Below, in pieces: positions 18,601 through 24,187 of a stretch of DNA of 41,909 nucleotides. A model generated the notes under the pieces. That model did no database searches, was not told the DNA's origin, and saw nothing but the letters and a program-made list of their open reading frames with translations. Origin of the DNA: Prevotella sp. (GTDB lineage Bacteria > Bacteroidota > Bacteroidia > Bacteroidales > Bacteroidaceae); assembly GCA_017619375.1 (NCBI GenBank), contig JAFZSL010000074.1:1-41909 (forward strand). Reading direction: 5' to 3'. Both the position numbers and the translations under genes were made by a program. Position 1 is the first letter of the stretch. Each line of letters starts with the position of its first letter.

Positions 18601-21192
18601 TCACTTGAGCATTAACCGCTCCATTTCGAGGGACGCCCAGATGAAAGGCCCCACGCCTTTGGCATCGTTGTCGCGGATGGGTTCGCTGAGATAGTATTCG
18701 TAAGAGCCATCGCGCTTGACGTTCTCCTTGGCTTTCGCCTTGGGGTTGATGCGTTTCAAGGCGGCCTCCACCTGTGGACTGATGCCCGGCCCCAACCCTG
18801 CCACGGAACAGCAGGAGGTGAGCGAGATGGTCTTGTCGGCGTTGACCCTTACGAACTGTTTGAGGATGCCGTTGTAAGCCTTCACGCCGGCGTCGCGGTA
18901 TTTCTCTCCGAGATAGCCTTTGCGGTAGGCCTTCAAGAGGGCGTAGGCGAACATGGACGAACAAGTGGACTCCAGGTAGTTGCCCTCGCGTCCCGGGGCG
19001 TCCATCACCTGATACCACACCCCCGTGTCCTTGTCCTGCCATTGGATGATGGCATCAAGGTCTTTTTTCAACAACTCGATGAGTTCACCGCGACGGGGAT
19101 AGTCCTCCGGGACGGCGTCGAGGAGTTCGATGAGCGCCATGGTGTACCATCCCTGCGCCCTGCCCCAGCAATGCTGGCTGAGGCCTGTGCTCTTGTCCGC
19201 CCAGAACATGTTGCGATTCTCGTCGTAGGCGTGGCGGTTGAGTCCGGTGACGGGGTCAAGGGTGCGGTCGTAGGTGATGCTGACCTGGTTGACGGCATCA
19301 TCGAATATTTTCCTGGCCTTGGCGGGCTTCATCAGAGTGGAAGCGGTGAGAGCGCGGTAGGGCAAGCCCATGAAGATGCCGTCGAGCCACACTTGGTAAG
19401 CATAGATGGCCTTGTGCCAGTAGACCTTGTCGACCACCGTCCTTGGCTGTTTGTCAAGTTGTTTGAGCATCGTCTGCATGGCGACGAGGTTCTTCTTCTC
19501 GGGTGCGAGTTGATACATCCTTGTGACGAAATGCCCGGTGCGGATGTTGTCGAGGTTGTAGTCGAGGATGTCGTATCCCCTGATGACCCCTTTGCTGTCG
19601 ATCATCGTGTCGGTGTATGCCTTGCAGTAGTCCATGATGTCCTGGCCACCATATTCGAGATAGGTGTCGAGCATGCTCTCCAATTCGATGCCCATCACAT
19701 AACTCCATTTGGGTTTGGTGGAGAAGTCGAGGAGGTAGGACTGTGGCACGCGTTTCATCTCCGAGTAGGTGAGCCATTCGCTATAGTGCTTGTATGGGTT
19801 CTCTGTGAGGAGCAGCGACCCGTTGGCGAAGACATTGTCGAGGTGCAGGTCGTGGCTGAGCCCGGTGCGCCTCAGCCCTGTGTCCTGCACGCCGTCGAAG
19901 CGGCAGTTCTTCACATTGATGTTGTAGATGTTGTCAGCGTCTTCAAGACCGTTGAGCAACAGTCCGTATTTGCTCTTCTTGCAGGTGACGTCTTCCATAT
20001 AGACATTGCGCACGGTGGGGTTGAACCCGCGGCAGCAGTTTTCCTTCGGCTCATAGTTGAGGTTGATGCGCATGACGGCTTCGCGGCATTCGCCCACCTC
20101 CACCTTCCGCATGAAAATGTTCTCGATGACACCGCCACGACAGGAGTTGGTCTTGATGCGCAACACGCGGTCGAGGTTGGGCGAGTCCATCTTGCAGTTC
20201 TCCACATAAACGTTCCTGCAGCCGCCAGAGATTTCGGAACCGATGACCACGCCTCCGTGACCGTCCTGCATCTCACAGTTGCGCACGATGATGTTCTGGC
20301 TGGGGATGTTCCATTTCCTTCCGTCCACATTACGTCCGCTCTTGATGGCGATGCAGTCGTCGCCTGTGTGGAAGAGGCAGTTCTCTATCAGCACGCGGTC
20401 GCACGATTCCGGGTCACAGCCGTCGCCGTTGGGTCCCTCGTTCCAGATTTTCAGTCCTCGCACGGTGATGTCGGTGGACATGAGGGGATGCACCACCCAG
20501 AAGGGGGAGTTGACCAACGTGAGGCCTTCCAACAATATGCCGTCGCATTTATAGAGGTTGATGAGTTGGGGACGCAGTCCTTTTCCGGGTCCGAACTGCC
20601 TCTCTTCCACGTCTTTGCCGTCCTCGGCCATCCGCAACAATTGCGGGCGTGTCTCACGTTGGTGCTCGGGGGTGCTTTCCGTCCAACCGTAACGTGCGGC
20701 TCCGCACATGGGCCACCAGGTCTCACGACTGCCGTTGCCGTCGATGACACCCTCGCCGGTGATGGCTACATCGGTTTCTCCATAGGCATAGATGCAGGGG
20801 GAGTAGTTGTACACGTCGATTCCTTCCCAACGGGTGAGCACGGTGGGATAGAGCGTGGTGTCGAAGGCGAAGAGCAGGCGTGCATCCTTCTCCACCACAA
20901 GGTTGACGTGGCTTCTCAGACGGAGGGCGCCGGTGTTCCACGTGCCGGCAGGCACCACCACCTTTCCCCCACCGGCCTTGGAACAGGCGTCGATGGCCTT
21001 GTTGATGGCGGCTTGGTTCTTGGCGGCAGTGGCGGTGGGTGACGCACCATACTTGGTGATGACGAAACTCTTGTCGGGGAACTGCACCTTTCGGATACTT
21101 CTTTCAATCTTGGCAAAGTCACTCTCCCACCCTTGCGCCAAAAGCGAAAGGGGGAACAGCAGGCCAAGCAGGATGGATGTCAAATGTCTCAT
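18601..21192 (-). CDS. GH28 polygalacturonase - GH105 unsaturated uronyl hydrolase fusion
   Basis: An 863-aa exported bifunctional enzyme with signal peptide MRHLTSILLGLLFPLSLLAQ. Residues ~40-470 are a GH28 beta-helix that hydrolyses galacturonan: NEGPNGDGCD (~257), HTGDDCIAIKSG (~277), QDGHGGVVIGSE (~312) and LRIKTN (~345) supply the three aspartates, the histidine and the Arg/Lys pair of the family. Residues ~490-863 are a GH105 (alpha/alpha)6 barrel that removes 4,5-unsaturated uronyl residues: WLDG, HAYD and WGRAQGWY match the Asp, His, Arg and Trp of YteR-like enzymes. All catalytic residues appear present in both halves. It is first in an operon with the PL1 lyase, and the lyase would generate the unsaturated ends that the GH105 half consumes. 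There is no dockerin or T9SS tail, so a periplasmic location is likely. Confidence 0.95.
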   Translation of the reverse strand: MRHLTSILLGLLFPLSLLAQGWESDFAKIERSIRKVQFPDKSFVITKYGASPTATAAKNQAAINKAIDACSKAGGGKVVVPAGTWNTGALRLRSHVNLVVEKDARLLFAFDTTLYPTVLTRWEGIDVYNYSPCIYAYGETDVAITGEGVIDGNGSRETWWPMCGAARYGWTESTPEHQRETRPQLLRMAEDGKDVEERQFGPGKGLRPQLINLYKCDGILLEGLTLVNSPFWVVHPLMSTDITVRGLKIWNEGPNGDGCDPESCDRVLIENCLFHTGDDCIAIKSGRNVDGRKWNIPSQNIIVRNCEMQDGHGGVVIGSEISGGCRNVYVENCKMDSPNLDRVLRIKTNSCRGGVIENIFMRKVEVGECREAVMRINLNYEPKENCCRGFNPTVRNVYMEDVTCKKSKYGLLLNGLEDADNIYNINVKNCRFDGVQDTGLRRTGLSHDLHLDNVFANGSLLLTENPYKHYSEWLTYSEMKRVPQSYLLDFSTKPKWSYVMGIELESMLDTYLEYGGQDIMDYCKAYTDTMIDSKGVIRGYDILDYNLDNIRTGHFVTRMYQLAPEKKNLVAMQTMLKQLDKQPRTVVDKVYWHKAIYAYQVWLDGIFMGLPYRALTASTLMKPAKARKIFDDAVNQVSITYDRTLDPVTGLNRHAYDENRNMFWADKSTGLSQHCWGRAQGWYTMALIELLDAVPEDYPRRGELIELLKKDLDAIIQWQDKDTGVWYQVMDAPGREGNYLESTCSSMFAYALLKAYRKGYLGEKYRDAGVKAYNGILKQFVRVNADKTISLTSCCSVAGLGPGISPQVEAALKRINPKAKAKENVKRDGSYEYYLSEPIRDNDAKGVGPFIWASLEMERLMLK

Positions 21193-21277
21193 TTTGTTAT
21201 AGTAGTTTGCTTCCCTGAAGGGGGGTAGTTTGATGTGAATCGGAATACGAATTCCAAGGGTTTAGGTTTGATTGGTG

Positions 21278-21309
21278 CAAAGGTAGTGCAAAAAGGGCGC
21301 AAATCCAAA
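21278..21309 (-). promoter_or_regulatory. Promoter of the GH28-GH105/PL1 operon
   Basis: On the minus strand, TTTG (21309-21306), 20 nt, then TACCTTTG (21285-21278): a full match to the Bacteroidota consensus. The predicted leader to the ATG at 21192 is about 80 nt. Confidence 0.75.
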
Positions 21310-21579
21310 CAAAATAAGATTTTTCTCAAGAAAGGGGAAGACTGGTGACAACTCCGTCATACCCTTATTGCAGTCGCTTCGCTCAAAATATTAAAAAAAC
21401 AGGCAATTACATAGGGTTTGACCCCGATATACTCTAAATGCAGTCAGCGATGGCTGCTTTTTTCATTTTATCACACTATTTATTGAATAATTGTATGGCA
21501 ATCATATGTTTTGATGAAATTCGCAAAAAGATACATTGCCACCGCGAATTGTTAAAAAATCAATATTTAGTGTTAAAAA

Positions 21580-21611
21580 TTTGTTTTTTACCCATGGTCA
21601 TTATATATTTG
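21580..21611 (+). promoter_or_regulatory. Orphan plus-strand promoter, reads into a terminator 45 bp on
   Basis: TTTG (21580-21583), 20 nt, TATATTTG (21604-21611): a full consensus match on the plus strand. No protein gene follows on this strand before the terminator at 21656-21690, so the promoter appears to serve the small RNA listed next. Confidence 0.7.
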
Positions 21612-21617
21612 CACCAT

Positions 21618-21690
21618 CTTTTTTAGGATTTCGATGTTTCGAAATCACATTTTTCGAGGTTGGAAGCTTCCTGCGCCAACCTCTTTTTTT
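21618..21690 (+). ncRNA. Candidate small RNA, about 73 nt, function unknown
   Basis: A start about 7 nt after the promoter gives a transcript with two stem-loops. The first pairs GATTTCGA (21627-21634) with TCGAAATC (21639-21646). An unpaired ACATTTTTC linker follows. The second is a terminator: GAGGTTGG (21656-21663) with CCAACCTC (21676-21683) and seven T. No open reading frame with a plausible start fits inside. The layout (own promoter, short body, terminator) is that of a trans-acting or regulatory RNA. It sits in the 622-bp gap between the second C10 peptidase and the GH28-GH105 gene. I do not recognise it as a known family. Confidence 0.55.
21656..21690 (+). terminator. Rho-independent terminator of the small RNA
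   Basis: An 8-bp GC-rich stem, a 12-nt loop and seven consecutive T on the plus strand. There is no plus-strand protein gene upstream for it to serve. Confidence 0.75.
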
Positions 21691-21765
21691 GTGCCTTGAA
21701 AGGGCATGGGAGTGAACAGGAGGTCTTAGTAGAGAAAAGGATATGGGAGGAGGTAGGTCGCGCTG

Positions 21766-21798
21766 AAAAACGATTTCGGGGGCGATGCCCCCGAAATC
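21766..21798 (-). terminator. Rho-independent terminator after the second C10 peptidase gene
   Basis: GATTTCGGGGGC (21772-21783) and GCCCCCGAAATC (21787-21798) form a 12-bp perfect stem with a 3-nt loop. On the minus strand GTTTTT follows. It starts 17 bp after the stop codon. Confidence 0.88.
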
Positions 21799-21814
21799 AT
21801 ATGGTTGTGTTTCT

Positions 21815-24187
21815 TTAGTTGTCCTTTTTGAGGATTTGATTGATGAGGATGGTCGCATCTGTCACGTTAACCGAATTGTCATTGTTGACGTCCGCATATT
21901 CATGGTGGTATCCCTCCGGGTCATTACCGGTCAACACACGCTCCACGATGAGCGAGACATCGGTCACATTGATAAATCCATCCATATTCACGTCGCCAGG
22001 CAAAACTGTTGGATTGGAGAAGGAGAAATCGACATCATAGAGTATGGTGTAGTACCCTCCCACGCTTTGCCTGTATCGGAAGTCGAAGTTGTAGGGCGTG
22101 TCAGGTTCCAAATCATAGAACTTCACTTTGATTTCCTTTGTCTCCCCCGCCTTGATAAGATAAACCGGCGTCTCTTCGCCCGACACGTAGGTGTAGGAGT
22201 TGTTAGCGTGGATGTAGAGGTTTGCCGAGAACGAATCATAGTAGTCGTATGAGGAGGTGTTCTTCACACGCACGGTTGCCGTGGTGGTGGGTTTGGCGTC
22301 GATGGAGAGGTCCACCTTTGACAAAGTGACCGTGTAGGTTGGTTTGGCCTTGATGGTGACATTTGATGTACCGACCACGTTGTTGCCCTCGGGATCGGTG
22401 CACACCCACACGTAGTATTTTCCAGCATTCTCGGGATAGAAATAGAAGGTGACGGTTTCCGACTGCCCTGCCTCGATGGCGGTGCCGGTGGAGAAGGTGC
22501 ATTCACCCTTGTTTGAACTGGATGTGCTGGCAAAGAAATAGAGTGGCTCTTTGTAATCGATGTTCTGGCATTCGATGGTGACCTCCACGGGCTGCACAAC
22601 AGTGGCGTACTTGTTGCCAGTGAAGTCAAACTGCTTGGCTTGAAGTTTGGACTTGCGCTCAGTGATGGTGTAAGTGCCGTTTTTGACGACCACATCGTAG
22701 TAAAGGCTGTAGGGGCGTGCACGCACCCATCCTGTGGCATTCTTCTCGGTGCTGACAAACACCAAGGTGTGTGTACCGTTGGAAAGATTGTATTGGGAGA
22801 CATCGAAAGTGAGACGTGATGTAAAGTAGTAGCCAGCGGGAAGTTCGTAATTCTTGAAGTACTCGTAATTCTTGTCCAGGACGGTGATGCTGCCATCGGC
22901 CTTCAATTCTCCCATGCCGAGTGCCAAGTATGCCGTACCGGCATTGTTGTTCTGCAACAAGGCACTGATGACGTTGCCGTCAACGGCTGGGTCGAGGGCT
23001 GTTGCCACAAGGTCTCCCGTCTGGCTTCCACTGCCTGGTCCCTGCCCTGTGTTGGGCTGCAGCCCTATGACAGCAGCAGCATTCATGGGAAATCCGTTGT
23101 CTACCGTGCCATCGTAGACTTCTGTGCCGTGGTATGGGTCGGTGGCGTGCAACTTGAAATAGCCATCATATTGTCCGCCCCATCCCCAGTTGAAGTGGTA
23201 GAGGCCTTCTTCGTTATACCCGTCACAGATGAAGGCATGTCCTCCATAGATGCCGTCGCCGCTGTATATCACCGGCCGCCCGGCCTTGAGTTCACCATAG
23301 ATGAGCGCATCCCATTCACTGATGGAATAATCGGAACGGTTCACATATTGCCAGGTGTAGGGGTCGTAATCGAAATACTCGGCCATGCCAACCGCCAGTT
23401 GATACTCACTCGCACCTGACCCATTGAGGCCGTAGTTCATAAGCGCCGCATAACCAGCATAAACCATCAGTTGCGAAACGGCCTTCTCACTCGGCGTCCC
23501 CACATCTGCCGAACTATAGATATTCTTCATATTCGCCCAATCAAATGTGACGGATGGCAGTGAGGAGAGTTCCCCAATGGTACTGTTGGGAGTGTATCCT
23601 GGAACGGCTTTCGTGGCTTTCTTCGGATATTGGTAATAATTCATCACCTGGGCTCCGGCAGTGGCCACGCAGCCAGTAACGCAATGCAAATTATTGATGG
23701 TCGGCGTCAACGTGTTGTAGATGTAACCCGTCGCCGTGGCACTTCCCTGATTCCATTTTGTCTTGATGAGCGGACTGATGGTGGTATGTACAGGCACACG
23801 GAGAGGCTGCGAGACGCCCTGCCCGTCGTTCGTATCTGGCAATGCACTGATTTCCAATGCCGTTTGCTCCAACCAAGAGCGGAAGTTGTCGGGCATGTTT
23901 TCCTCGTCGTATCTGCCTTCTTCTGTATAGCCGAGCAGGGGTACGGCACGGTCGTCACCGGCGATGATGACGAAGCCATGGTTGCCGGCCGTGTTGAACA
24001 CATAAAGTGGCTGGTGGTTTGCGCCCGAGGTGTTGCCCGGGGCGCGTTGTGGTTCTCCGGCCACTTGGAGTCCTCGTGTACGAAGGAAGGCGTTGGCCTG
24101 GTTCATGGCTTGCTGCTTGCTCACGGGACCAGCCGTGGCCAACAATGCAACTACCAATAATAATAAGGTGACAGTAATTTTTTTCAT
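21815..24187 (-). CDS. Secreted C10 cysteine peptidase with C-terminal dockerin doublet
   Basis: A 790-aa exported peptidase with signal peptide MKKITVTLLLLVVALLATAG. The propeptide carries the family motif VIIAGDDRAVPLLGY. The catalytic Cys is in VTGCVATAGAQVMNYY (about 175), the catalytic His in GGHAFICDGYNEEG (about 316), with FNWGWGG after it. Residues ~400-720 are beta-rich, probably two Ig-like modules. The last ~60 residues carry two dockerin-like loops (GDVNMDGFINVTDV, ADVNNDNSVNVTDA). Unlike the other C10 peptidase here it has no leucine-rich repeats and no T9SS-like tail. It is monocistronic with its own promoter and terminator. Peptidase identity is firm; the substrate is not known. 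Confidence 0.94.
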   Translation of the reverse strand: MKKITVTLLLLVVALLATAGPVSKQQAMNQANAFLRTRGLQVAGEPQRAPGNTSGANHQPLYVFNTAGNHGFVIIAGDDRAVPLLGYTEEGRYDEENMPDNFRSWLEQTALEISALPDTNDGQGVSQPLRVPVHTTISPLIKTKWNQGSATATGYIYNTLTPTINNLHCVTGCVATAGAQVMNYYQYPKKATKAVPGYTPNSTIGELSSLPSVTFDWANMKNIYSSADVGTPSEKAVSQLMVYAGYAALMNYGLNGSGASEYQLAVGMAEYFDYDPYTWQYVNRSDYSISEWDALIYGELKAGRPVIYSGDGIYGGHAFICDGYNEEGLYHFNWGWGGQYDGYFKLHATDPYHGTEVYDGTVDNGFPMNAAAVIGLQPNTGQGPGSGSQTGDLVATALDPAVDGNVISALLQNNNAGTAYLALGMGELKADGSITVLDKNYEYFKNYELPAGYYFTSRLTFDVSQYNLSNGTHTLVFVSTEKNATGWVRARPYSLYYDVVVKNGTYTITERKSKLQAKQFDFTGNKYATVVQPVEVTIECQNIDYKEPLYFFASTSSSNKGECTFSTGTAIEAGQSETVTFYFYPENAGKYYVWVCTDPEGNNVVGTSNVTIKAKPTYTVTLSKVDLSIDAKPTTTATVRVKNTSSYDYYDSFSANLYIHANNSYTYVSGEETPVYLIKAGETKEIKVKFYDLEPDTPYNFDFRYRQSVGGYYTILYDVDFSFSNPTVLPGDVNMDGFINVTDVSLIVERVLTGNDPEGYHHEYADVNNDNSVNVTDATILINQILKKDN

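Follow-up and report, generated by a model that had tools for sequence, protein, structure and literature searches.

A predicted free-standing small RNA gene of the Prevotella group with a conserved UCCU terminator loop

A predicted small RNA unit between a pectinase and a peptidase gene

The window, which is the whole 41,909-nucleotide stretch of Prevotella sp. DNA analyzed here, contains a putative small RNA unit at positions 21580 to 21690. A sequence-only reading of the window had described a full promoter on the plus strand, followed by a perfect 8-bp hairpin, a linker and a terminator with seven T, and we recovered all of these parts in the intergenic gap. The flanking genes are also arranged as that reading had stated, both on the minus strand, with the 3' end of a peptidase gene and the 5' end of a pectinase gene facing the element. 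The features are as follows.

18601 to 21192, minus strand: neighboring GH28/GH88 pectinase (Pfam), its 5' end toward the element and divergent from the small RNA
21550 to 21556, plus strand: likely upstream promoter element TGTTAAA, 54 nt before the -7 box
21580 to 21583, plus strand: -33 element TTTG, conserved in alignment A2 and in a further set of loci
21604 to 21611, plus strand: -7 box TATATTTG, after a 20-nt spacer from TTTG; invariant in A2 (14 sequences)
21616 to 21690, plus strand: predicted small RNA transcript of about 75 nt, from the fold and the match of model R1, its start inferred
21627 to 21646, plus strand: stem-loop 1, GATTTCGA-TGTT-TCGAAATC, in which 21627 to 21634 pair with 21639 to 21646
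21647 to 21655, plus strand: single-stranded linker ACATTTTTC, 9 nt, poorly conserved (linker table)
21656 to 21683, plus strand: terminator hairpin GAGGTTGG-AA-GC-TTCCT-GC-G-CCAACCTC, loop UUCCU
21684 to 21690, plus strand: T7 run after the terminator hairpin
21815 to 24187, minus strand: neighboring C10 peptidase with Spi inhibitor and dockerin domains (Pfam), converging on the small RNA

The -7 consensus of Bacteroidota promoters is TAnnTTTG, and we take the TTTG-20 nt-TATATTTG arrangement of the element to be a promoter of this type; it is not among the sites listed by a sigma-70 scan. Six sites of the form TTTG-N19-21-TANNTTTG occur in the window versus 0.20 expected from shuffles. The transcript start was placed by register with the FopS start in Rfam. 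Folding of positions 21614 to 21690 gave a z score of -5.35, with none of 200 shuffles equally good, and stem 1 consists of 8 perfect pairs closed by the loop TGTT. Model R1, which was built from ten aligned members, matches positions 21603 to 21693 with 97.8 bits, the window being one of its ten building sequences.

Two mechanically called reading frames of at least 60 aa touch the element: one of 85 aa on the minus strand (21601 to 21858) spans it, and one of 62 aa on the plus strand (21438 to 21626) overlaps its promoter end. No small-protein frame is shared among the 60 members, in which the longest in-transcript frames vary in length and any ATG at all is found in 38. With its own promoter, its own terminator, a conserved structure and no conserved reading frame, the element has the sequence features of the class of intergenic trans-acting small RNAs. 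In the Rfam search of the window, a tRNA elsewhere was the sole match over the cut-off and none fell on the element, while the search of 21200 to 21830 returned weak matches, all under the cut-off. The search of its own genome for paralogues yielded only matches of 14 to 27 bases with E values of 0.04 or worse.

As a separate observation, the intergenic positions 21402 to 21470 carry a hairpin with a T6 run (21440 to 21457) and have a 69-nt copy in another genome (G009), and short sequences resembling parts of 21380 to 21520 recur at other places of the own genome. Positions 21402 to 21470 are perhaps a recurrent terminator or small repeat.

Covariation, the terminator loop and distribution within the genus

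In a conservation test set beforehand, the promoter, both stems and the terminator were found to be kept together in relatives. The covariation check proposed by the sequence-only reading also came out in favor of the structure. In alignment A6, with 61 rows, 96.6% of the cells are paired, 60 cells are changed on both sides, and 11 of the 19 pairs show changes on both sides versus a shuffle mean of 4.7. None of 500 shuffles matched any covariation measure, a count that is not a probability because the members are related by descent, and sliding the pairing partners abolished the signal. Helix 1 has both-side changes in 7 of 8 pairs with 92.6% of cells paired, counts that rest mainly on one stem type (type A) because the other (type B) is poorly aligned there; helix 2 has both-side changes in 4 of 11 pairs with 99.1% of cells paired. 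One locus that is FopS-like by eye (L114) was kept in these 61-row counts and left out of the 60-member counts. As read from the alignment, the structure is under selection.

Stem 1 is of type A (GATTT(A/C)G and like) in 48 of the 60 members and of type B (GATAAG/CTTATC) in 12, and all 60 fold with z < -2 (40 shuffles each). The loop GC-NUCCU-GC is exact in 57/60 members and TCCTG is present in 59/60; TCCT also occurs in 17 of 18 weaker-scoring loci, the eighteenth (L270) being judged a false R1 match by eye. In some members, the terminator stem is replaced and the loop kept. The linker, which had been put forward as the seed, does not bear this out: it reads ATTTTTC in the window and varies in relatives, where the commonest form, ATCCCTC, accounts for 7/60. 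On these comparisons, it seems that the distinctive part of the RNA is the terminator loop GC-NUCCU-GC and not the linker.

Upstream of the promoter, TGTTAA stands at -53 to -55 from the -7 box in 42 of 57 small RNA boxes versus 6 of 681 other TANNTTTG boxes in the same loci. The type B members of an earlier locus set, from which two loci without a -7 box had been dropped, do not have it at that position, but 5 of the 11 that were found among the weaker loci do. In the own genome, TGTTAAA lies 46 to 48 nt before TANNTTTG at 13 places (L330 to L342), the small RNA gene included, and the reversed pattern at none; by eye, the genes after these sites include those for a SusC-like protein, an HtrA-like protease and ribosomal protein L21. 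This layout is likely an upstream promoter element. It may be a general one, which says little about regulation.

By blastn, the element was found in 13 of 35 other same-genus genomes, 10 of them at E <= 1.4e-11, and in 0 of 24 genomes outside the genus; the tally of 16/60 also includes the own genome and two promoter-only matches (G014, G031). The control, a neighboring intergenic stretch of equal length, matched in 4/35 genomes in the genus and 3/24 outside, mostly with weak E values and with a single in-genus match below 1e-5. Model R1 matched in 108 of the 200 genomes of the genus, and in 54 of 86 when only the good genomes are counted, at least one match being false (G011, L270), and gave two matches in one genome, the second of which (L114) reads as a FopS gene by eye. 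Model R2, the terminator hairpin alone, matched at E 1e-5 in 105/200 genus genomes (54/86 good ones), with one match per carrier. Both models favor the sequences they were built from. About half of the sampled genus genomes are without a match. Among 19 presumed non-carriers (at least 90% complete), one (G489) carries the element and another (G032) has a diverged copy by eye; the remaining 17 gave weak R1 matches or none (6 of 13 match sequences inspected).

Outside the genus, the top R2 scores were 37.5 bits in 399 family genomes and 37.9 bits in 295 order genomes, close to the weakest in-genus match counted (39.4 bits). Spread beyond the genus was nevertheless rejected, as 20 of the best outside matches, when inspected, were all ordinary terminators with a GAGGTTG-type stem and without the family loop (TCCTG in 0/20); a TANNTTTG box lay within 110 nt upstream in 1/20, and their R1 maximum was 30.4 bits. 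Since terminators of the order commonly have the stem GAGGTTG/CAACCTC, the family is marked by its loop, its stem 1 and its promoter only. No clear member was found outside the genus among the genomes sampled. The GAGGTTG...CAACCTC stem with a T run and varied loops was itself seen as a recurrent terminator in many order genomes (L244 to L252, L343 to L353). A pattern scan of named genomes gave at least 118 stretches; the carrier titles among the matches listed are Prevotella, Segatella, Hoylesella, Leyella, Hallella and Xylanibacter, beside other titles reading Prevotellaceae and Bacteroidales. Type strains whose titles appear there include Prevotella veroralis and P. histicola. Phage spread was considered and set aside, as two patterns had no exact match in viral contigs.

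Genomic context, known small RNAs and alternative readings

The gene neighborhood differs with the stem type. Of the type A loci, 20/48 have a member of the pectinase family among the four genes upstream (by eye), and a sigma factor or a ribulose-phosphate epimerase often follows downstream (assigned by Pfam from representatives). Of the type B loci, 9/12 have upstream a gene with a PALP domain, taken to be trpB (by eye), and 11/12 have a ROK kinase downstream (by eye; assigned by Pfam from representatives). When the nearest genes at the 61 loci were clustered, none resembling the neighboring peptidase grouped with it. The gene downstream is not constant from locus to locus, which fits a role in trans. 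In another same-genus genome (L085:3182-3810), we also noted three Acido-Lenti-1 RNA matches over the cut-off.

Action on the neighboring pectinase or peptidase genes had been suggested, and duplex scoring, which covered the start regions of the flanking genes, does not support it. The pectinase of the window scored z values of -1.57, -1.72 and, with the whole RNA, -2.25, which relatives do not repeat: in 24 genes of the pectinase family, duplex z averages -0.07 with the 5' tail and 0.04 with the loop. The peptidase of the window scored 0.73, 1.73 and -0.48. No cluster of neighbor mRNAs shows a consistent duplex signal, the lowest mean being -0.89 for trpE with the loop (1/9 below -1.5). As far as tested, the targets are not among the neighbors of the small RNA.

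The closest known candidate is FopS (RF04319) of Bacteroides thetaiotaomicron, described in the available part of its report as a mostly intergenic RNA of about 65 to 70 nt with a Bacteroidota promoter and terminator, multicopy, with Bacteroides and Bacteroidaceae named as hosts (PMC11697453). The present RNA is likewise short, mostly intergenic and equipped with such a promoter and terminator, and in some relatives its 5' end shares GUGUUUUUCA with FopS in register. The two differ in that the FopS 5' seed is unpaired in the Rfam model and the FopS copies inspected have no fixed UCCU loop, while the present RNA has stem-loop 1 and is single-copy, with one R2 match per carrier versus 5 FopS matches in the own genome. 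The single-stranded 5' seed of FopS (R1') lies partly within stem 1 in the window and is partly kept in a subset of relatives. FopS is bound by RbpB, an RRM protein; a search of the own genome found no RRM_1 protein, whereas a Bacteroides control genome has one, so that a Bacteroides-type partner is not in sight. The five FopS matches of the own genome include G000:C55:142265-142334, G000:C17:262-328 and G000:C73:24956-25022.

We therefore weighed whether the element is a diverged small RNA of the FopS/GibS family that kept the FopS 5' seed and lost the rest, a reading that we consider quite unlikely. In the register comparison (three loci without a -7 box dropped), type A 5' ends agree with FopS at a mean of 8.49 of 13 positions versus 4.28 and 4.61 in controls, and type B, at 4.10, stays at control level. 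Four of five relatives scanned (L045 to L048) have sub-threshold FopS scores of 25 to 32 bits; the best, 31.6 bits, does not reach the gathering score of 56 bits, and the window element has no FopS match at E up to 10. In a stricter ranking, the 5' part of the small RNA comes first among the FopS matches in 5/60 loci and within the first 50 in 19/60, out of about 2400 stretches in most loci, a count that is not independent because the members are related. Against these stand a median rank of 186 and, for the window, rank 219 of 2393. FopS moreover has matches of its own in 191 of the 200 genomes of the genus, in 184 of them over the cut-off, and weak R1 matches pointed to a true FopS gene (L278, 75.5 bits). 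The FopS link is accordingly a lead and not a membership. A role as a sponge for FopS was not supported (mean duplex z 0.31 over 20 pairs).

Another reading, in which the UCCU hairpin loop docks an RNA-binding protein that the RNA sequesters or carries, appears quite improbable as well. The nearly fixed loop would suit it, yet some members keep the loop on a different stem, and the search for an RRM_1 protein in the own genome found none; a fixed stem needs no protein-binding reason because it is the common terminator stem of the order.

Identity or orthology with SrcF seems to us distinctly improbable. SrcF of Segatella copri was reportedly described by El Mouali et al. in 2024. According to the available part of one report, it is a small RNA of Segatella copri that affects nutrient-uptake genes, including PULs (PMC11814227), and it comes from a member of the same bacterial group. 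However, the title Segatella copri is absent among the matches listed (at least 118 named loci).

GibS (RF04182) appears in the available part of its report as an RNA of 145 nt with a largely unstructured 5' seed and promoter motif 2 (PMC7366714). Both are conserved intergenic small RNAs of a Bacteroidales genus with their own promoter and terminator, GibS being trans-acting; unlike the present RNA, GibS measures 145 nt, and the window element has no GibS match at E values up to 10. The consensus of BTnc231 (RF04180) has a U-rich 5' end and then AGAUUUAGA, like part of the present family by eye, but its model has 154 positions and other hairpins and did not match the window element at E up to 10. 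Five hairpin 20-mers were not found in the literature searched. A catalog of candidate structured RNAs from human microbiomes, available in part (PMC8040213), may contain the present motif.

That the element is a cis-acting leader or attenuator of the downstream gene, a DUF6359 lipoprotein or an ECF-type sigma factor, is very unlikely. A gene of the lipoprotein or sigma factor cluster (both identified by Pfam of one representative each) follows the R1 match on the same strand after 62 to 186 bp in 19/61 loci (by eye), and 31 of the flanking genes belong to the sigma factor cluster. The leader role is weakened because no downstream gene is constant and the next gene converges in the window, as it does in most ROK-kinase-context loci. 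Furthermore, a sigma factor orthologue is present in 12 of 13 presumed non-carriers (one of which, G032, has the diverged small RNA copy elsewhere), with its own TANNTTTG box 86 to 143 nt upstream in 12/12. A promoter-terminator pair that has no function, and persists by chance or as a roadblock to transcription, would agree with a short element, a transcript that is only predicted and a common terminator stem, but stem 1 covaries and the loop and promoter layout are fixed, which makes this reading extremely doubtful.

Proposed role

Taken together, the regulatory RNA of the sequence-only reading stands as a free-standing, conserved unit that fits no Rfam family at the cut-off, while its linker seed and neighboring targets find no support. 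We consider it more likely than not that the element is a free-standing small RNA gene of about 75 nt of the Prevotella group that acts in trans through a loop seed; from its conservation we infer both its transcription and its base pairing in trans. The RNA would be transcribed from its own Bacteroidota-type promoter with the upstream element and ended by its own intrinsic terminator. Stem 1 would mask some of the 5' region. The seed would be the exposed NUCCU loop, which is clamped by GC/GC on a strong stem and would meet AGGA-containing sites in mRNAs in trans. A bolder and on the whole unlikely extension is that this genus-wide small RNA split from the FopS/GibS seed family, with the FopS-type start retained in some members, the seed folded into a hairpin and recognition moved to the fixed UCCU loop on a common terminator stem. 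If true, the multicopy FopS network, which controls glycan uptake, would have in this RNA a single-copy counterpart.

Few small RNAs of Bacteroidota have been studied, and those described, as far as the available parts of the sources go, tune glycan use and gut colonization. A conserved, single-copy, fixed-loop small RNA in Prevotella and its relatives is a ready target for deletion, and it offers a test of whether these bacteria, in which no RRM protein was found here, use loop-seed small RNAs.
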